A DNA stretch of 41,802 nt from Bacteroidota bacterium (lineage in GTDB: Bacteria; Bacteroidota; Ignavibacteria; UBA10030; BY39): positions 1 through 41,802 of the forward strand of contig JASEGV010000020.1 of assembly GCA_030017895.1 (NCBI GenBank), in the 5' to 3' direction. Of the stretch, positions 2,129-35,397 are shown one piece after another. Numbering within the stretch: the first letter of the stretch is position 1; each line of letters begins with the position of its first letter. Position numbers and translations under genes: made by a program. The notes beneath the pieces are model-generated. The model was not told where the DNA came from. It was given only the letters and a program-made list of their open reading frames with translations, and ran no database searches.

Positions 2129-2488
2129 TTGGATGTAAATTATGATGCAAATGGAATCATCGATATGAAGTTCTACAGAAAAATATGCGATAAACTTTAT
2201 TGGCAGAAGCTTTCAGCTAAACAACCGTCGTATCATATTCGCTTGTTGCTAATTTTTATTTCTATCTTTGCATTGTTTGGTTATTCCGTTGTTCTCGATT
2301 CCGAGGGATATAAATTAGTCCGTCGTAAAAAGCAACTGCTAAATTATGATCGAAGAAATCTAATCTATCTTACCTTCGAACAAATTCAGAAAATGATTTC
2401 TTATTTAACCGTTTCAGCGGTTATTTCCTTACACCATTATTCGCCTTCTTCAGAAGATAATCATCTCTGCCCGGTTCTCCGTATTTAG
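2129..2488 (+). CDS. Possible small single-pass membrane protein (weak)
   Basis: An open frame of 119 codons; a more natural start is ATG 2165, giving about 107 residues. The N-terminal part is basic, followed by one hydrophobic segment (LLLIFISIFALFGYSVVL) and a Lys/Arg-rich stretch (KLVRRKKQLL). That layout loosely recalls the FtsB/DivIC type of divisome protein (short cytoplasmic end, one helix, then heptad Leu), but the usual coiled coil and C-terminal motif are missing. The last 30 residues do not look like a protein and overlap a hairpin at 2406-2423. The antisense strand over 2424-2540 has an equally protein-like frame. It could be a decayed gene or no gene at all. This ORF is the only content I can offer for the 2013-2559 stretch, apart from two hairpins. 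Confidence 0.3.
   Translation: MDVNYDANGIIDMKFYRKICDKLYWQKLSAKQPSYHIRLLLIFISIFALFGYSVVLDSEGYKLVRRKKQLLNYDRRNLIYLTFEQIQKMISYLTVSAVISLHHYSPSSEDNHLCPVLRI
2406..2423. terminator. Small hairpin, possible terminator
   Basis: TAACCG (2406-2411) and CGGTTA (2418-2423) form a perfect six-base-pair stem around a six-base loop. On the plus strand it is followed by a pyrimidine-rich TTTCCTT. It sits inside the doubtful ORF at 2129-2488, which is one reason to doubt that ORF's C-terminus. Confidence 0.25.
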
Positions 2489-2498
2489 TCCCGCGTAC

Positions 2499-2519
2499 CA
2501 CAGCATATTTTGGGCTGTG
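2499..2519. terminator. Hairpin between the weak ORF and the dehydratase-like gene
   Basis: CACAGC (2499-2504) pairs perfectly with GCTGTG (2514-2519) around a nine-base loop. The stem begins 11 bases after the stop codon of the weak ORF and is followed by an AT-rich run (TATTATTTCTATAATAAA). It may end transcription from upstream or mark the leader of the gene at 2560. Confidence 0.3.
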
Positions 2520-2559
2520 TATTATTTCTATAATAAATTTTATTAATTAAAAAGGCGGG

Positions 2560-4167
2560 ATGAAAAATTCACAAACAAATATTAATTCGCTTCGTGGTAT
2601 TGTTGAAACGACTCAACATTACAAACGTTTTGAAGAGTTACCTTTTTTAGCCGGCGAAAAACAAAGCACTACTATTTTACTCGGCGGTTTCACAGCACGC
2701 CACGATTATTTTGTGCGAGCTGGTATTGAAGGGCTGGGCTACAAAGTTCAAGACCTTCCAACCCCGAATATTGAAGCATATCACGTCGGTCGTGAGTATT
2801 GCAATAATGGAATGTGCAATCCCACTTATTTCACAGTCGGTAACCTCGTTAATTATCTGAAAAAGTTAGAAGCAAGCGGAATTGAAAAATCGGATATCGT
2901 AAAGAATTATGCTTTCTTGACCGCAGGTGCTTGCGGTCCGTGTAGGTTCGGTATGTATGAGAATGAATTTAGGTTAGCTTTGAGGAATTCAGGATTTGGA
3001 GGTTTTCGTGTTTTAGTGTTTCAGCAATTCGAAGGTTTCGATCAATCGAAACAAGGTAACGGTTTGCTTCTGAATGAGGAGTTTTTTCTCGGTATCCTTA
3101 ACGGTCTCGTGCTCGCTGATATTATTAACGACCTCGGTAATAAAATTCGACCGTATGAAATTAATAAAGGTGAAACGGATAGAATTTTAGCCGATGCAAC
3201 TGAAATAATTTATCAAACCATCAAAAAAAAACAATCGCAACTCGATGAATCTAAAATAATAAAAATATTTCAGAAATTTACCCGCTCAAAGTCGAAAAGT
3301 TTGTACGCTCTTCTGACCGACCAGATGTTAAGCGATGTATATCCTGATGCGTTACGTGTAATCAACGAAAAATTAAAAGCTGTAGTAGTGGATCCGCTTC
3401 GAGTAGTTCCAAAGATAAAAATTACAGGTGAGTTTTGGGCACAAACTACCGAAGGCGATGGGAATTTTAAGATGTTCAGATATTTAGGAAATGAAGGTGC
3501 AGAAATTATAAAAGAACCAATTACAAATTGGTTGTTGTATCTTCTATACGACGGAAATCAGTTGATTACAGATAGAAAAGAATTTGTGAGAACATATATT
3601 CGTCCGAAGCTTTTAATAAAGTTTGGAGAATTTATTTTAAAGAAAGAATATAATCGTTTCAGAAAATCGACGAGCAATTTGCCACAATCTTTGAGCAACC
3701 AATACCAACTGGAACAGCTTGCACATAAATATTACAACACTCGTGCAAAAGGGGGCGAAGGGCATTTAGAAGTATCGAAAAGTATTTATTATACTAAAAA
3801 CCATCTAGCACATTTAGTTTTATCGCTTAAACCGTTCGGATGTTTACCGAGCACACAGAGTGATGGTGTCCATTCGGTAGTAACTTCGCATCATCCTGAT
3901 ATGTTGTTTTTACCGATTGAAACTTCAGCAGAAGGAGAAATAAACGCATACAGTCGTGTGCAGATGGGTCTGACCGAGGCGCGTCTCCGCTGTAAATTAG
4001 AGTACGAAAAATCTTTGGATGGAACCGGTTTGACTGAGGAAGAAGTGAGAAAGTTTATTTCAGAAAATCCGGAAATGCAAAATCCATTCTTTAAAATTCC
4101 GAAAGTTGAAGAAGTAGCTTCGAGAGCAGCTACGATTGTATATTTTGTTAAAAAACAGATAAAATAA
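2560..4167 (+). CDS. 2-hydroxyacyl-CoA-dehydratase-type / double-cubane protein (partner of the activase)
   Basis: The 535-residue protein carries the Cys pattern of the HgdB/BcrC-like reductase component: NNGMC near residue 88, a GACGPCRFGMYENE block near 127-136 and GCLPSTQSDG near 428. In this superfamily such Cys ligate [4Fe-4S] or double-cubane [8Fe-9S] clusters that receive one electron at a time from an ATP-driven activase. The neighbour at 4626 is exactly that activase. In many Bacteroidota and Clostridia these two halves are fused in one protein of about 1,400-1,500 residues whose substrate is unknown; here they are separate genes. I do not claim 2-hydroxyglutaryl-CoA as the substrate. 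ATG 2560 follows a purine-rich AAAAAGGCGGG that can act as a ribosome site. Confidence 0.8.
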   Translation: MKNSQTNINSLRGIVETTQHYKRFEELPFLAGEKQSTTILLGGFTARHDYFVRAGIEGLGYKVQDLPTPNIEAYHVGREYCNNGMCNPTYFTVGNLVNYLKKLEASGIEKSDIVKNYAFLTAGACGPCRFGMYENEFRLALRNSGFGGFRVLVFQQFEGFDQSKQGNGLLLNEEFFLGILNGLVLADIINDLGNKIRPYEINKGETDRILADATEIIYQTIKKKQSQLDESKIIKIFQKFTRSKSKSLYALLTDQMLSDVYPDALRVINEKLKAVVVDPLRVVPKIKITGEFWAQTTEGDGNFKMFRYLGNEGAEIIKEPITNWLLYLLYDGNQLITDRKEFVRTYIRPKLLIKFGEFILKKEYNRFRKSTSNLPQSLSNQYQLEQLAHKYYNTRAKGGEGHLEVSKSIYYTKNHLAHLVLSLKPFGCLPSTQSDGVHSVVTSHHPDMLFLPIETSAEGEINAYSRVQMGLTEARLRCKLEYEKSLDGTGLTEEEVRKFISENPEMQNPFFKIPKVEEVASRAATIVYFVKKQIK

Positions 4168-15846: not shown

Positions 15847-15866
15847 ACTAATGGTCGGTTTGCTAT

Positions 15867-15897
15867 CCGCCTTCTCCGCCAGAGGCGGAATCGGCGG
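15867..15897. repeat. GC-rich nested palindrome (dispersed element, copy 1)
   Basis: The inner stem TCCGCC (15875-15880), loop AGA, GGCGGA (15884-15889) is perfect. An outer stem CCGCC (15867-15871) and GGCGG (15893-15897) encloses it across a three-by-three internal loop. A loosely 7-base-periodic AT-rich stretch follows up to the TTG start of the transporter at 15933. It resembles the palindromes at 21344 and 34215. Confidence 0.6.
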
Positions 15898-15932: not shown

Positions 15933-16691
15933 TTGGTCGAGTTACAAATTCCTTGGGAAATTATCCCATTATTTTTTTTGATGGCGTTTCTGTATTCGAG
16001 CGTCGGTCATGGTGGTGCATCGGGTTATCTGGCGCTGTTTGCACTTGCCGGTGTTGCCCGTTCCGAAATCGCCCCCGTTGTTTTAGTGTTGAATGTTTTA
16101 GTAGCCAGCAGCAGTTTTATAAATTATTACCGGGCAAAACATTTTTCGATTCAGCTTTTACTTCCTTTTATAATTAGCTCGATACCAGCGGCTTTTGTTG
16201 GCGGACTTTTAAAAGTTTCATCGCTTGCGTTTACAATTATATTAGGGTCAGTATTATTGTTAGCAGCAGGACGATTGTTGTTTGTAAAAAACCGGATTGA
16301 AACCCGTTGGCAGAAATATTCGGGCAAGGCATTTTACTGGGGAATTCCTATCGGTTTTGTAATCGGAATTCTTTCGGGTATTACAGGTGTCGGAGGCGGA
16401 ATATTTTTAAGTCCGTTCCTACTGCTAACCGGTTGGGCGGATGCAAAAAAAACCGCTGCTGTATCGGCGGCATTTATAATTTTAAATTCGTTGAGCGCCT
16501 TAGCTGCAAAATCACTCAGCGCTCCTATTCATTTCGATATAGCATTGATTTTCGGTATTGTGGTATTAATAGCCGGGCAAATCGGCTCACGATTAGGTGC
16601 GTTTAAATTTCAACCCGATATCTTACAAAAATTATTAGGGGCTGTTTTACTAATTGCCGGTATAAAACTAATTAAGGAGTTATGGTCATGA
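15933..16691 (+). CDS. TauE/SafE-family membrane transporter
   Basis: This 252-residue integral membrane protein belongs to the sulfite/organosulfonate exporter family (DUF81). It shows two internally related halves, each with a Gly-rich loop: SVGHGGASGYLALFALAG near the N-terminus and GILSGITGVGGGIFLSPFLLL in the middle. About seven or eight hydrophobic helices can be counted. The substrate in this organism is unknown; family members export sulfite, sulfoacetate or related anions. The frame opens with TTG 15933, the first possible start after an in-frame stop; the next ATG (about residue 17) would remove part of the first helix. Its stop overlaps the next start (ATGA at 16688-16691). Confidence 0.82.
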   Translation: MVELQIPWEIIPLFFLMAFLYSSVGHGGASGYLALFALAGVARSEIAPVVLVLNVLVASSSFINYYRAKHFSIQLLLPFIISSIPAAFVGGLLKVSSLAFTIILGSVLLLAAGRLLFVKNRIETRWQKYSGKAFYWGIPIGFVIGILSGITGVGGGIFLSPFLLLTGWADAKKTAAVSAAFIILNSLSALAAKSLSAPIHFDIALIFGIVVLIAGQIGSRLGAFKFQPDILQKLLGAVLLIAGIKLIKELWS

Positions 16692-17425
16692 AAAATATTT
16701 GGACAGAATCAGATATTCAATTCTTAAAAGAGAATTATCCAAAACAGGGTGCTACTTATGTATCACAAAATATTGGACGCTCTGTGCACGCCGTCAGAAT
16801 GAAAGCTATGCAGCTTCAAATTAAATTCGCGAAACCGGATAGTTGGTCGGAAGAAGATTTATTGCTTCTAAAAAAATATTACCCCAAGCGTGGGTCTCCA
16901 TATATCTCTACTCGAGTTAATCGCACGCAAGATAGTGTGCGGACTAAAGCAATCCGTCTCGGTTTAAGAAGGGAGGACTTTCGTAAATGGTCTGATTGGG
17001 AAAAACGTTATCTCACTCGCCACTATGGATCGAAATCAAATCTTTCTATAAGTCGAACTCTCGGTCGGTCAAAAGATGGAGTTCTCATTAAAGCTCAAAA
17101 GTTAGGTCTCACAAAACCGGCAGCTGCACGTTGGACGGAGGAAGAAACAGAACAATTAATCAAGATGTTTCAGGACCCCAAATTTTCGTTGAAGGAGATG
17201 GAAAAAATTCTGAAACGATCGGAGCGGAGTATTTGGAAGAAAGCTTTCAAGTTAAAAATAAAGAGACCTTGGCTAAATAAATGGACCGATGAGATGCACG
17301 CTTTTCTGAAAAAGAATTATAAAAAGATGGCGTACAAAAATATCGCACAAAAATTAGGTGTTACTGAAAGTTCAGTTCAACATTATGCAAACCGGCACGG
17401 ATTCCATAAAGGAAACAAAAAATAA
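16688..17425 (+). CDS. Protein of five tandem Myb/SANT-like helix-turn-helix units
   Basis: Start set at ATG 16688, eight bases after GGAG (16676-16679) and overlapping the upstream stop; the ATG at 16682 is too close to that site. The 245-residue protein is almost entirely made of five repeats, each starting with a Trp in a W(T/S)xxE/D context: Trp 5, 53, 101, 149 and 199. Spacings are 48, 48, 48 and 50 residues. Each repeat has three helices in the Myb/SANT arrangement, for example WTESDIQFLKENYPKQG then a recognition-like helix RSVHAVRMKAMQL. The many Lys and Arg suggest DNA binding. Single and double units occur in bacterial phage and regulatory proteins; five in a row is unusual. No enzymatic domain is present. 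Role unknown. Confidence 0.75.
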   Translation: MKNIWTESDIQFLKENYPKQGATYVSQNIGRSVHAVRMKAMQLQIKFAKPDSWSEEDLLLLKKYYPKRGSPYISTRVNRTQDSVRTKAIRLGLRREDFRKWSDWEKRYLTRHYGSKSNLSISRTLGRSKDGVLIKAQKLGLTKPAAARWTEEETEQLIKMFQDPKFSLKEMEKILKRSERSIWKKAFKLKIKRPWLNKWTDEMHAFLKKNYKKMAYKNIAQKLGVTESSVQHYANRHGFHKGNKK

Positions 17426-17433
17426 ATATTCTT

Positions 17434-18006
17434 ATGTCTCAAGAAAAAATATATGATGTAATGATGAAAGCCTCATCGCTTGCAGATGCCGGCGATTTTA
17501 TGGGAGCGGTAGAAATGACAGAAGAATTATTAAAGGAGTGTCCGGATTTTGTTCCGGTCCTTTGTTTTATCGGAGATATGTATTTGCATCTCGGCTCGCC
17601 TGTTTTAGCAATCGACCCGCTTGAAAAAGGTGTAAATTATCAACCTGGTTTTTATCAAAGCCATTACCTGCTTGGCTGTGCATTAGGAAGAACGATGAAC
17701 TTCCAACTTGCTCTCCACCATTTAAGAATTGCCGATAAATTGGAACCTAATCACACAGAAATTAACCGTAATCTTGGTTGGATACTTTGTATAGGTGGCA
17801 AATTATCCGAAGGCAGAAGATTGTTGAACAAAGCAATAAAGATTGACCCCACTAACAGTCTTGCCTACAATGATATGGCGGTAAGTTATTTATTAGGCAA
17901 TCGCAAGTTTCCACAAAAAGCTAAGTTGTGGTTTGAAAAAGCGATAAAGCTCAACCCGCAGAACGAGTTTATAAGAAATACCTTTGAAGCGTTTATGAAA
18001 AGTTGA
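17434..18006 (+). CDS. TPR-repeat protein
   Basis: The 190-residue protein has no signal peptide and consists of about four tetratricopeptide repeats: MKASSLADAGDFMGAVEMTE, VLCFIGDMYLHLGSPVLAID, SHYLLGCALGRTMNFQLALHH and INRNLGWILCIGGKLSEGRR, then AYNDMAVSYLLGNRKFPQKA. TPRs mediate protein-protein contact. The start is eight bases after the end of the Myb-repeat gene and the end is 50 bases before the helicase gene, so it may belong to that transcript. No partner can be read from the sequence. Confidence 0.8.
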   Translation: MSQEKIYDVMMKASSLADAGDFMGAVEMTEELLKECPDFVPVLCFIGDMYLHLGSPVLAIDPLEKGVNYQPGFYQSHYLLGCALGRTMNFQLALHHLRIADKLEPNHTEINRNLGWILCIGGKLSEGRRLLNKAIKIDPTNSLAYNDMAVSYLLGNRKFPQKAKLWFEKAIKLNPQNEFIRNTFEAFMKS

Positions 18007-18056: not shown

Positions 18057-19445
18057 ATGGATCATCTCCCAACACTTATATTTTATGAAGGCATGCTTCA
18101 ACTAAGAGGAGAAGCAGATAAAGATTTAATATCTATATTCTTTAAAAAACATCCACTTAATTACTTCATCTCGCCTGCTTATAAATATTCTGAAGTTATA
18201 AAATATTGTGAAGAAAAGAGGATAGCTATTGAGAACAACGCAGCAAAATTTTATGAAGTTACAAATATCACTCACAGCGAATCGCTTGACCCGTTCGATT
18301 TTCAAATAAAAGCAATCGAAGCTTGGGAAAAAGCCGATAAGCGAGGTATGGTTGTCTTACCGACGGGTGCCGGCAAAAGTTTTATGACTCGTTTGTTGAT
18401 AGCTCGTTTAGCTATCGAAGATGCAAAGTGTTCTGTTCTTGTGGTCGTACCGACAAGAGTACTAGTTTATCAATGGTATGAACAATTGCGGACTGCTTTT
18501 CAGCAGGACATAGGAATTATTGGTGATGATATCTTTAATCCTAAGCCCATCACGGTTACAACTTATAAAAGTGCCCAGATTTATATGGCAACTTTGGGCA
18601 ATCGATGGAAGCTTGTTGTGTATGACGAGATTCATAAAAAATTATCGGAAGGAAAATCAGCTAATGCGGCAAGGTTCTGTATGTCGCCTTATCGACTTGC
18701 ACTAACAGCAACTCCGGTAAGCAGTGCACTTGCTTTGCTAAGTGATTTAATCGGTCCGATTGTTTATGAAAAAGCAACTGATGACTTGATTGAAAATGAA
18801 ATCTTATCTGTGTATCGAAGAATATCCGTTCATTTAAAGCCAGCGAAAAATGAAATTGAAACCTACTATGACATTCGTAAACCTATTGAGAAAGTTTGGT
18901 ATCGTGCAAAAGCAGAACACAGAATTCAGGACAGCAGTTGGCTTGTTCGTGAACGCCTGTATTATCCCGATGACGTTGACCTTGCCCAAAGGTCTCTGTT
19001 GCGTGCTTATAGATATTGGCAATCAATACCGAGTCGTCTTGCAAGGTTGGAAGAAATTTTACAAAATCATCAAAACGACAGGATTTTAATTTTTACTGAA
19101 AGTCGTTACGCCGCTTACGAAATATCAAAACGTTTCTTAATACCAGCCATTACGGCTGATATAGAATCGGATGAGCGTTCGTTTTATCTTGACGCATTTA
19201 CGAAAGGAAAATGCCGTGCCCTTGTTACTGCAAAAGCATTGGAAGAGGGTATCGACTTGCCTGAAGCAAATGTCGCGGTTATTATTGCCGGTAGAAAAAA
19301 CAGTAAAGTGGAAACAATTAGTTATATACAGCGGCGTGGACGCGTGCTTCGCAAGAGAAAAAGTAAGGAAGCTTTAGTTTACGAAATATCTTTTGCACTT
19401 CCGATTAAAGTTACGAACAAACCTGCTGAGGTCAACCTTTTCTAA
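18057..19445 (+). CDS. XPB-family DNA helicase (superfamily 2)
   Basis: The 462-residue protein has an N-terminal region of about 75 residues in the place of the XPB damage-recognition domain, then an SF2 core: Walker A LPTGAGKS with Lys 107, VVVPTRVLVYQW, DEIH at 190-193, LTATP at 216-220, RILIFTES (motif IV), TAKALEEGIDLPEANVAVI (motif V) and SYIQRRGRVLRK with Arg 426-429 (motif VI). The DExH box and length match archaeal XPB (about 450 residues) rather than RecG or UvrB. In archaea XPB works with the nuclease Bax1 in nucleotide excision repair, and the next gene is Bax1-like. It lacks any sign of a restriction or modification partner. Confidence 0.85.
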   Translation: MDHLPTLIFYEGMLQLRGEADKDLISIFFKKHPLNYFISPAYKYSEVIKYCEEKRIAIENNAAKFYEVTNITHSESLDPFDFQIKAIEAWEKADKRGMVVLPTGAGKSFMTRLLIARLAIEDAKCSVLVVVPTRVLVYQWYEQLRTAFQQDIGIIGDDIFNPKPITVTTYKSAQIYMATLGNRWKLVVYDEIHKKLSEGKSANAARFCMSPYRLALTATPVSSALALLSDLIGPIVYEKATDDLIENEILSVYRRISVHLKPAKNEIETYYDIRKPIEKVWYRAKAEHRIQDSSWLVRERLYYPDDVDLAQRSLLRAYRYWQSIPSRLARLEEILQNHQNDRILIFTESRYAAYEISKRFLIPAITADIESDERSFYLDAFTKGKCRALVTAKALEEGIDLPEANVAVIIAGRKNSKVETISYIQRRGRVLRKRKSKEALVYEISFALPIKVTNKPAEVNLF

Positions 19446-19452
19446 TTTCAAA

Positions 19453-20733
19453 GTGAAACATAAAATACTTAAATGGACTTTAGATCCGAACGATAAACCA
19501 CTGTGTAAAGACGTTGCTCAAATCTTTCAAGAGTTGCAAAATTTTGTCGGCAAACCCCTGCGTGAGGTAACCGAGGAGATTGAGGGAATAAATATTTCCG
19601 AAAAAAAAGAATCTATTCGGAAGTTGCGCCGTGAAATTGCTGAATATATAACAGAAAGTTTCGATGATGAGTTGCCGAATAACTTATCACCCGCCGATAT
19701 TCGGAAATATATATTCACATCTGTATGGGATAAAGGACACGGTTTTATTACATCCGAGAGTGGGTTGTTTATGCCGACATCGGATGAAATATTCAGTACT
19801 GCGGGCAAATATTTCAACCTTGAAACTAAAGTTATTGAGAAATATTTCTTTGCCGATATTCCGGAAGAAAAATTACTAAAGATAAAACCGGAAGTAACTG
19901 CAACTGACCCGAGCAGCATAATCAGGGCGCTCAACAGTCGGCGATTGAAGTGGAAGTTAAGAAAATCCATCGGATTAAAATTAGCCATTCCGGTTTATAC
20001 TGAGAAGAATTCACCGTACACGAGTATAATTTGGTCCCTCAAGAAATGCCATTTAATGTATGATACAGTCCAAAATGGTAATGATATTGTCTTTAATGTT
20101 ACAGGTCCTTTCGGTTTGTTTATGCACACGACGATTTATGGAAATCGGTTAGCACAATTGATGGAGATGCTGGTTCAGGAAACCATGTGTTCTTGGAAAG
20201 TCCAGGTTGATATTCTCAACCGAAAGTTTGCGAAAACCATAAGTGAGAATATCGAAACGGTTATACTCGACAATTCGATGAGTGATTTATTCGCAAACAA
20301 AGTGGATATTACCGAGAAGTTTAAGTCTTCCGACGAAGAAGCATTTATGCGTTACATAACAAGATATAGTTCTGATCTGGATGTAAGTTACGAGGGGACG
20401 ATTATACCGTTAAAGTCGGAAGAAGGGAAGCATATCGGTTTTTTCATACCCGATTTTGTATTAGTAAACCGGAACACTCAAGAACAAATATTAATTGAAA
20501 TCGTAGGATACTGGCGTGAAGAATACTTGCAACGGAAAATTGAGAAGATAAAACTACTCAAGGATAGAAATTTAATTTTGATCGTAAACCGAAATCTTAG
20601 TTTGACTTCCTCCGACGGTGAAAATGTTTTATCGGAATTAGAATTTGTTAAAATATACTATTATTCGAGCAGGGCTGAATTAAAAAACATTGCGAGGAGT
20701 GTTGTTGCAGAGCTTGATGGTGGTAATAATTGA
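19453..20733 (+). CDS. Bax1/DUF790-like nuclease, partner of XPB
   Basis: Start taken as GTG 19453, seven bases after the helicase stop; an open frame continues upstream to TTG 19393 but that part lies inside the helicase gene. The product is then 426 residues. Its N-terminal half is helical and charged. The C-terminal domain has the nuclease signature of the archaeal Bax1 family: a Gly-rich beta strand, GFFIPDFVLV with Asp 334, then ILIEIVGYWREEYLQRKIEK with Glu 349, as in a PD-(D/E)xK-type core, followed by a Lys-rich strand NLILIVN. Bax1 binds XPB and cuts near the 3' side of damaged DNA bubbles in archaea. The gene order XPB-Bax1 is conserved there, which supports the assignment. Confidence 0.8.
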   Translation: MKHKILKWTLDPNDKPLCKDVAQIFQELQNFVGKPLREVTEEIEGINISEKKESIRKLRREIAEYITESFDDELPNNLSPADIRKYIFTSVWDKGHGFITSESGLFMPTSDEIFSTAGKYFNLETKVIEKYFFADIPEEKLLKIKPEVTATDPSSIIRALNSRRLKWKLRKSIGLKLAIPVYTEKNSPYTSIIWSLKKCHLMYDTVQNGNDIVFNVTGPFGLFMHTTIYGNRLAQLMEMLVQETMCSWKVQVDILNRKFAKTISENIETVILDNSMSDLFANKVDITEKFKSSDEEAFMRYITRYSSDLDVSYEGTIIPLKSEEGKHIGFFIPDFVLVNRNTQEQILIEIVGYWREEYLQRKIEKIKLLKDRNLILIVNRNLSLTSSDGENVLSELEFVKIYYYSSRAELKNIARSVVAELDGGNN

Positions 20734-34303: not shown

Positions 34304-34630
34304 ATGGAAAAAAATAATCACATAACGATGAAAGAAATCCGTGCAATCGCTAAGCGGATTGCCGAGAAGTTTAATGTTGAGAAAATTATTCTCTTTGGGT
34401 CTTACGCCTATGGAAAACCGAAGGCGGGAAGTGACGTTGATCTTCTTATTGTAATGAACACCGATAAACGACATTATGAATTACGCTACCAAATATATTC
34501 TATACTTGAAGATTTTAAATCCCCAGTCGATGTTGTTATCAAAAAACCAGAGGATGTAAGAGCAGCATCTCGTAGCAGAGATTGGTTTTTACAAGATATC
34601 GTCAATAAGGGACGTGTTATCTATGGGTAA
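34304..34630 (+). CDS. Minimal nucleotidyltransferase (MNT), first of two
   Basis: The 108-residue protein is a minimal nucleotidyltransferase of the pol-beta fold. The signature GSx10DxD is intact: LFGSYAYGKPKAGSDVDLLIV, with Asp-x-Asp in DVD. Such proteins act as the antitoxin-like partner in MNT-HEPN modules and can add AMP to a Tyr of the HEPN protein. It shares an exact 29-base identity with the second copy over 34313-34341 and 35077-35105. ATG 34304 is the annotated start; ATG 34328 (MKEIR) is a plausible alternative. The stop overlaps the HEPN gene. Confidence 0.88.
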   Translation: MEKNNHITMKEIRAIAKRIAEKFNVEKIILFGSYAYGKPKAGSDVDLLIVMNTDKRHYELRYQIYSILEDFKSPVDVVIKKPEDVRAASRSRDWFLQDIVNKGRVIYG

Positions 34631-35067: not shown

Positions 35068-35397
35068 ATGAAATGCAATAATCACATAACGATGAAAGAA
35101 ATCCGCTCCATTGCGAAGCGCATTGCTGAAAAGTTTGATGTGCAAAAGATTATTCTCTTTGGCTCGTACGCAAAAGGAAAAGCTGATGAAAATAGCGATG
35201 TGGATTTGCTTGTCGTGATGGACACTAAGAAGCGCCCAATCCAGCAGCGATATGAGATTTATAAATCGCTCACGCCGATTCATTTCGCTTTAGATATTAT
35301 TGTGCGAACCGAAGATGATTTGAAGCAACGCATTCCTAAAGGCGATTGGTTCCTAAAAGAAGCGTACGAAAATGGAAAGGTCCTTTATGCGCGGTGA
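35068..35397 (+). CDS. Minimal nucleotidyltransferase (MNT), second of two
   Basis: A 109-residue paralogue of the gene at 34304. It keeps the GSx10DxD signature (LFGSYAKGKADENSDVDLLVV) and shares the N-terminal NNHITMKEIRxIAKRIAEKF with the first copy, including 29 identical bases. The C-terminal half has diverged (GDWFLKEAYENGKVLYAR). It is followed, with overlap, by its own HEPN gene. Confidence 0.88.
   Translation: MKCNNHITMKEIRSIAKRIAEKFDVQKIILFGSYAKGKADENSDVDLLVVMDTKKRPIQQRYEIYKSLTPIHFALDIIVRTEDDLKQRIPKGDWFLKEAYENGKVLYAR

Follow-up and report, generated by a model that had tools for sequence, protein, structure and literature searches.

A five-unit helix-turn-helix array protein from a Bacteroidota genome belongs to a patchy, array-only family with position-specific units

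Introduction

Tandem proteins that read DNA unit by unit, such as zinc fingers and TALEs, are few and widely used. Myb repeats each contain three regularly spaced tryptophan or other aromatic core residues; c-Myb, Cdc5, SNAP190, and Reb1 carry tandem three-helix units in one chain, as does the protein described here. The record of phage T5 D5 annotates it as DNA-binding and required for replication and late transcription. Phage D5-like regulators are poorly studied, and searches of an open-access literature library returned nothing relevant on T5 gene D5 or on D5-like proteins of Listeria phage.

Several better-described systems place DNA-binding units in other settings. GcrA combines a single DBD, a linker, and a sigma-interacting domain, as described in part of PMC7403470; our protein instead carries five units and lacks the sigma-interacting part. 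The three helix-turn-helix (HTH) domains of Cbp1 lie in order along the CRISPR repeat, in chromatin-like structures (sections of PMC10883916). Phage homing endonucleases rely on tethered, modular regions to bind DNA at sites of up to 30 bp, according to portions of PMC3943268. A 2024 survey of DNA-binding tandem-repeat proteins contains none of the terms HTH, helix-turn-helix, Myb, GcrA, or phage in its main text (PMC11417379). Among the matches listed from open-access titles and abstracts, none described bacterial Myb-like, SANT, GcrA, or tandem HTH arrays.

Here we analyze a window of 41,802 nucleotides, positions 1–41,802 of contig JASEGV010000020.1 from a Bacteroidota bacterium, and the array protein P0001 that it encodes. 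Taken together, the analyses below establish P0001 as a real, constrained member of a patchily distributed family of proteins built from HTH arrays only.

Results

The Array Gene Is Overlapped by a Permease Gene and Is Constrained

The gene for P0001 occupies positions 16688–17425 on the plus strand (245 aa, stop included in the coordinates) behind a co-directional TauE/SafE-family permease gene (15933–16691, plus strand). The two overlap in an ATGA (16688–16691), in which the permease stop overlaps the array start codon. By eye, an AAGGAG lies at 16674–16679 ahead of the ATG at 16688, and an alternative in-frame ATG at 16682 is worse spaced relative to it. This plus-strand junction of RBS-like motif and overlap (16674–16691), read from the sequence, looks alike in the congener locus L029; the overlap suggests that translation of the permease and array genes is coupled. 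A TPR protein gene follows in the same direction (17434–18006, plus strand), and a longer block is kept within the host genus: ComEC-like, methyltransferase, an unclassified ORF, TauE, array, TPR, helicase, and DUF790.

P0001 and its congener ortholog (L029) are 86% identical in amino acid sequence. Their differences fall mainly at third codon positions (26, 8, and 63 at positions 1, 2, and 3), with dN 0.074 and dS 0.515. The resulting dN/dS of ~0.14 indicates active constraint, and by these substitution patterns P0001 is a real gene under purifying selection. The protein is strongly basic, with a net charge of +32 and a pI of 10.3.

Three other features of the window were recorded. An XPB-like helicase gene lies beside the DUF790 gene (18057–20733), a pair that resembles archaeal XPB–Bax1 and is also kept in the congener. 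An intergenic palindrome (CCGCCTCTGGCGGA type; 15866–15897) lies ~0.8 kb upstream of the array gene and recurs at 22 sites in the same genome with at most one mismatch, the reversed control giving none; it is a REP-like family. It was considered as an array operator and set aside because it is absent from the same place in L029 and so is not a conserved operator. Repeats in the window were likewise rejected as a binding-site family: apart from one 167-nt duplication, they amount to short pairs of little similarity. The duplication consists of two stretches (34304–34470 and 35068–35234), 74% identical, at the starts of small neighboring ORFs, and looks like a local gene duplication.

Five Units Fill the Protein

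Translation of 16688–17425 places tryptophans at residues 5, 53, 101, 149, and 199, as a preliminary description of this DNA had reported, and these mark the unit starts. The exact 48-residue spacing claimed there holds for three of the four intervals; the fourth is 50, owing to a two-residue insertion in unit 4. Further tryptophans occur at 104, 183, and 195. A chain of five tryptophans spaced 47–51 residues apart arose in 4 of 20,000 shuffled sequences.

A unit HMM trained without the window's genus recovered all five units. On the plus strand they are unit 1 (residues 4–46, Trp5, class N; 16697–16825; 50.2 bits), unit 2 (residues 52–94, Trp53, class A; 16841–16969; 49.0 bits), unit 3 (residues 100–142, Trp101, class B; 16985–17113; 60.9 bits), unit 4 (residues 148–192, Trp149, class C; 17129–17263; 20.5 bits), and unit 5 (residues 198–240, Trp199, class D; 17279–17407; 51.2 bits); the classes are defined below. 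Of 1000 shuffled sequences, 743 gave any match, with a top domain score of 9.1 bits. The units reach residue 240 of 245 and are joined by linkers of ~5 residues. None of the 14 Pfam matches to P0001 at E ≤ 10 is to a nuclease family, P0001 has no effector or sensor domain, and NCBIfam gave sub-cutoff matches only, mostly to sigma-factor models. Pfam, the unit alignment, and the structure model thus agree with the earlier proposal of five HTH-type units and no other domain.

The Units Are HTHs Closest to the GcrA DBD

An AlphaFold2 model built from 10 sequences reached a pLDDT of 84.6 and a pTM of 0.38; by these scores single units are well modeled and the geometry between units is unreliable. 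Non-HTH repeats would have told against the preliminary description, and the model does so in part only: units 3–5 were modeled as three-helix HTHs, and units 1–2 with helices 1 and 2 merged into one 23-residue helix (residues 7–29 and 55–77; window 16706–16774 and 16850–16918; pLDDT mostly 85–90). The N and A units in the model of a seven-unit relative are fused in the same way. This fusion in N- and A-class units may be real or may be a model artifact.

Structural comparison favored GcrA over Myb. The top VIA-align 2 match paired unit 3 with the GcrA DBD bound to methylated DNA (5yiv; Z 8.1, 1.1 Å, 43 residues), the second paired unit 4 with the free GcrA DBD (5yiu; Z 7.9, 1.4 Å, 48 residues), and tandem Myb proteins followed at Z 5.9–7.5; by the tool's own warning, Z below 8 can reflect a common arrangement. 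The units resemble the Caulobacter crescentus GcrA DBD in both fold (1.1–1.4 Å over 43–48 residues) and sequence pattern. A unit profile searched against solved chains ranked the CRISPR repeat binding protein 2lvs first (E = 1.5e-4), with GcrA (0.0026) and Myb (0.023) below it among other HTH proteins. Foldseek with the P0001 model returned nothing from the PDB at E ≤ 0.001, which is expected given the unsure inter-unit angles, and a plain-sequence search of solved structures gave one weak match, probably by chance.

The Pfam GcrA profile (PF07750) matched P0001 at E = 1e-5 over profile positions 2–44 of 155 only, scoring 26.4 bits against a gathering score of 26.9; the best relative reached E = 8.9e-14. 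The C-terminal sigma-interacting part of that profile is absent from P0001. Unit 5 was the top-scoring stretch for both Pfam GcrA and Sigma70_r4_2. The Pfam Myb profiles PF00249 and PF13921 gave E = 0.56 and 3.8 on P0001, although 8 and 9 of 10 aligned members, respectively, matched at E ≤ 0.01 (best 1.2e-10). Only the first tryptophan is invariant across the P0001 unit classes, so the units lack the three-aromatic Myb core. The earlier label "Myb/SANT-like" is therefore apt at the superfamily level only; in structure the GcrA DBD is closer.

Phage families complete the comparison. PHROG 323, "D5-like transcriptional regulator," matched P0001 at 3e-40, in three separate stretches of which the best covers 94–190 of 319, with no full-length alignment. 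T5 D5 itself belongs to PHROG 323 (1.2e-71) and contains three unit matches of 4.4, 11.4, and 11.6 bits, the best score among shuffles being 4.1. Among viral models, a phage "DNA mismatch endonuclease" came first, an endonuclease second, and a D5 protein fourth. In Acinetobacter phage ME3_88, four unit matches precede a Vsr match just under the cut-off, and in a viral contig (L041) five precede an HNH_3 domain; in both proteins the units are probably the DNA-targeting part. On the models and profiles together, the P0001 units are HTHs of the GcrA/Myb/D5 type.

Arrays Recur Patchily Across Bacteria, Plasmids, and Phages

The host genome carries three further array genes, with six (L002), seven (L003), and two (L005) units. 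Array matches at E ≤ 0.001 were found in 11 of 60 genomes, the host genome counted, and at 1e-8 in 16 of 98 genomes of the whole order. In 296 genomes spread over the phylum, 24 matched at 0.001 and 8 (the host included) below 1e-50; many of the weak matches are single HTH-like stretches in unrelated proteins. Named relatives include MAGs labeled Bacteroidota, Bacteroidetes, Chlorobiaceae, and Calditrichaeota, as well as Bacterium BMS3Abin03. In nine proteins of at least 540 residues (L055, L056, L058, L060, L061, L064–L066, and L073), a single HTH-like unit is N-terminal; single-unit proteins of this sort (L055, L073, and others), with a hydrophobic stretch after the unit, are recurrent in the phylum.

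Selected loci in the order and class of the host and in related MAGs yielded 36 distinct proteins with at least two units: six with two units, one with three, seven with four, six with five, ten with six, and six with seven. Repeat number thus varies among homologs, from two to seven; the view that five units are unusual in a bacterial protein gives way to arrays that recur in these 36 proteins and on plasmids and in phages. All 139 inter-unit intervals fall within 45–52 residues, and 71 are exactly 48. At one locus (L049, genome G339), seven-unit and six-unit array genes lie in tandem (1354–2379 and 2427–3362). Some copies are damaged: one is decayed, with four stops (G373:C142), and another is split by a stop (G028:C140).

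Outside chromosomes, 74 of 72,556 plasmid records matched P0001. Plasmid proteins contain eight unit matches in Stutzerimonas (one weak), five in Scandinavium (one weak), and seven in a sphingomonad (two weak); Priestia plasmid copies were among the matches listed. On the Scandinavium plasmid, a five-unit array gene (L083, 7959–8723) ends a type VI secretion cluster. Of 50,697 phage records, 30 matched P0001 at 0.001, and the host's seven-unit paralog as query found only 4 Listeria phage records.

At most loci the array gene lies close behind a co-directional gene. The upstream genes encode TauE, MacB/FtsX, a histidine kinase, a class II aminoacyl-tRNA synthetase, or an esterase, and two are ORFs without a Pfam match. 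From this arrangement, it is possible that the array controls its own operon. A conserved regulated pathway was considered and rejected: outside shared blocks, neighbors differ between lineages. The six-unit arrays L030, L031, and L032 all follow a MacB/FtsX permease gene, within 20–25 bp in L031 and L032, and this six-unit form has probably been kept vertically in the three.

Unit Identity Is Tied to Position

We compared units by class in 17 arrays of five to seven units, chosen because their order could be read in this way; other arrays (e.g., L003, L012, L013, and L052) are omitted. In each of the 17, a two-residue insertion marks one unit and no other (class C); this unit anchors the class labels, and around it the arrays align as (N)-A-B-C-D-(E)-(F). 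Units of the same class in different arrays are 41–51% identical, compared with 31% for units within one array and 26–36% for units of different classes. Only N versus A departs from this, at 45%, a likeness that suggests N originated as a copy of A. For 87 of 97 units, the closest unit in another array belonged to the same class. Positional identity implies that the units are not interchangeable beads, and it favors an arrangement in set order along a defined DNA site. The class signal is found at helix 3 (positions 31, 34, 35, and 38) and equally at positions 7, 18, 19, and 21; helix-2 and loop positions carry it as strongly as helix 3, so that by itself it does not prove base reading.

Recognition-Helix Surfaces Are Held Among Close Relatives

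Surface changes were counted in five chosen array pairs, with core positions picked by hand from the general HTH fold and conservation rather than from coordinates. In the three closest pairs, the helix-3 surface changed at 1/40, 5/48, and 3/48 positions, and the other surface at 21/119, 22/138, and 25/138. Pooled, these pairs give 9/136 on helix 3 versus 68/395 elsewhere (P = 0.0018); singly, one pair reached P = 0.016 and the others 0.48 and 0.06. The two more distant pairs showed no helix-3 difference (27/56 vs. 67/160; 28/56 vs. 82/161). In a separate run over all 136 pairs, with core positions picked likewise, helix 3 varied at least as much as helices 1–2 at large divergence. We read this as targets that stay constant inside a genus and shift from one lineage to another, although relaxed constraint is possible. 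Because the recognition surfaces drift, array specificity probably drifts between lineages as well.

Discussion

The reading we favor, with moderate confidence, is that P0001 would be a site-specific, probably regulatory reader of one long DNA site of ~20 bp. Its units would line up successively along the major groove and read the site jointly, each adding its own base contacts through helix 3; at ~4–5 bp per unit, five units would cover roughly 20–25 bp. With effector, sensor, and nuclease domains all lacking, P0001 would most likely work through occupancy of its site, either as a repressor or as an architectural transcription factor, perhaps on its own operon, in the manner of archaeal Cbp1 on CRISPR repeats. 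The phage proteins in which units precede a nuclease domain support the site-reader reading, since that is where a targeting array is expected. The annotation of T5 D5, whose PHROG P0001 matches, and the net charge of +32 are further points in its favor; against it stand the class signal outside helix 3, the freely changing helix 3 of distant pairs, the unreliable inter-unit geometry, and the varied gene neighbors.

The preliminary description had proposed instead that P0001 wraps or bridges DNA rather than acting as a classical regulator. This may still apply, but position-specific unit identity points to a specific site. We prefer a site reader to a nonspecific, nucleoid-type protein whose positively charged units would attach to DNA of any sequence, compacting it or tying two duplexes together, a role that we consider unlikely. 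The high charge (+32, pI 10.3), the missing effector domain, the lack of a consistent genomic neighbor of array genes, and a helix-3 surface that diverges between lineages as fast as other surfaces would all suit such a protein. Unit identity and order kept through 17 arrays are nevertheless unexpected for interchangeable units, helix 3 is almost frozen between congeners, and a patchy presence, with copies in 16 of the order's 98 genomes, is unlike the distribution of a general nucleoid protein. Patchiness, together with plasmid copies, instead suits a transferred array, originally a phage-type regulator or the targeting part of a homing endonuclease, that lost any nuclease and now serves as a local transcription factor or persists as a decaying selfish remnant. 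The 3e-40 match to the "D5-like" PHROG 323, the phage proteins that join units to Vsr-like or HNH domains, and the decayed (G373, four stops) and split (G028) copies add to the case for such an origin. We still regard it as improbable, given the active constraint between congeners (dN/dS ~0.14) and the six-unit form behind the same MacB/FtsX gene in L030, L031, and L032.

A Cbp1-like protein that coats CRISPR repeats was also entertained: 2lvs is the unit profile's top match among solved structures (E = 1.5e-4), the host genome has Cas1, and Cbp1 itself consists of three HTHs (PMC10883916, in part). Cas1 and arrays fail to track each other, however—5 of 11 array genomes have no Cas1 match (G003, G005, G028, G032, and G040), and 11 of 17 Cas1 genomes have no array match—and we rejected this role as very improbable.

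More tentatively, and with more doubt than we attach to the site-reader reading of P0001, arrays of two to eight units may form a natural modular DNA-reading system, in which each 48-residue GcrA-type module would read a few base pairs, arrays would grow at their ends by whole-unit copying, and new specificities would arise via helix 3. If this is true, HTH arrays of constant unit length and order in bacteria would offer another natural design for tests of a recognition code. Such a system would parallel TALEs and zinc-finger arrays with HTHs as its modules, paired with nucleases in phages but free of them in bacteria and on plasmids. Phage D5-like regulators, endonuclease targeting domains, and chromosomal multi-HTH proteins would then belong to one family.

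Each of the known systems shares part of this layout. Tandem Myb proteins differ from P0001 in that its units keep only the first tryptophan and score a Pfam Myb E of 0.56. T5 D5 resembles P0001 in having several HTH-like units, in belonging to the same PHROG, and in its annotation as DNA-binding; it differs in its weak unit matches, in unit starts 67 rather than 48 residues apart, and in longer, alanine-rich linkers. Phage Vsr-like and HNH endonucleases share the unit with P0001, which has no nuclease domain. Cbp1 and Cbp2 (2lvs) are likewise proteins of tandem HTHs only, a likeness that carries the fused-helix caveat for P0001 units 1–2; they are archaeal and have three or two HTHs, and the arrays described here do not track Cas1. 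In TALE/STAR and other tandem-repeat proteins a repeat array also reads DNA, with different repeats, as parts of PMC11417379 describe. HTH units of the GcrA/Myb/D5 type are thus known; no description of an array-only layout of two to eight units in fixed order turned up in the open-access literature searched.
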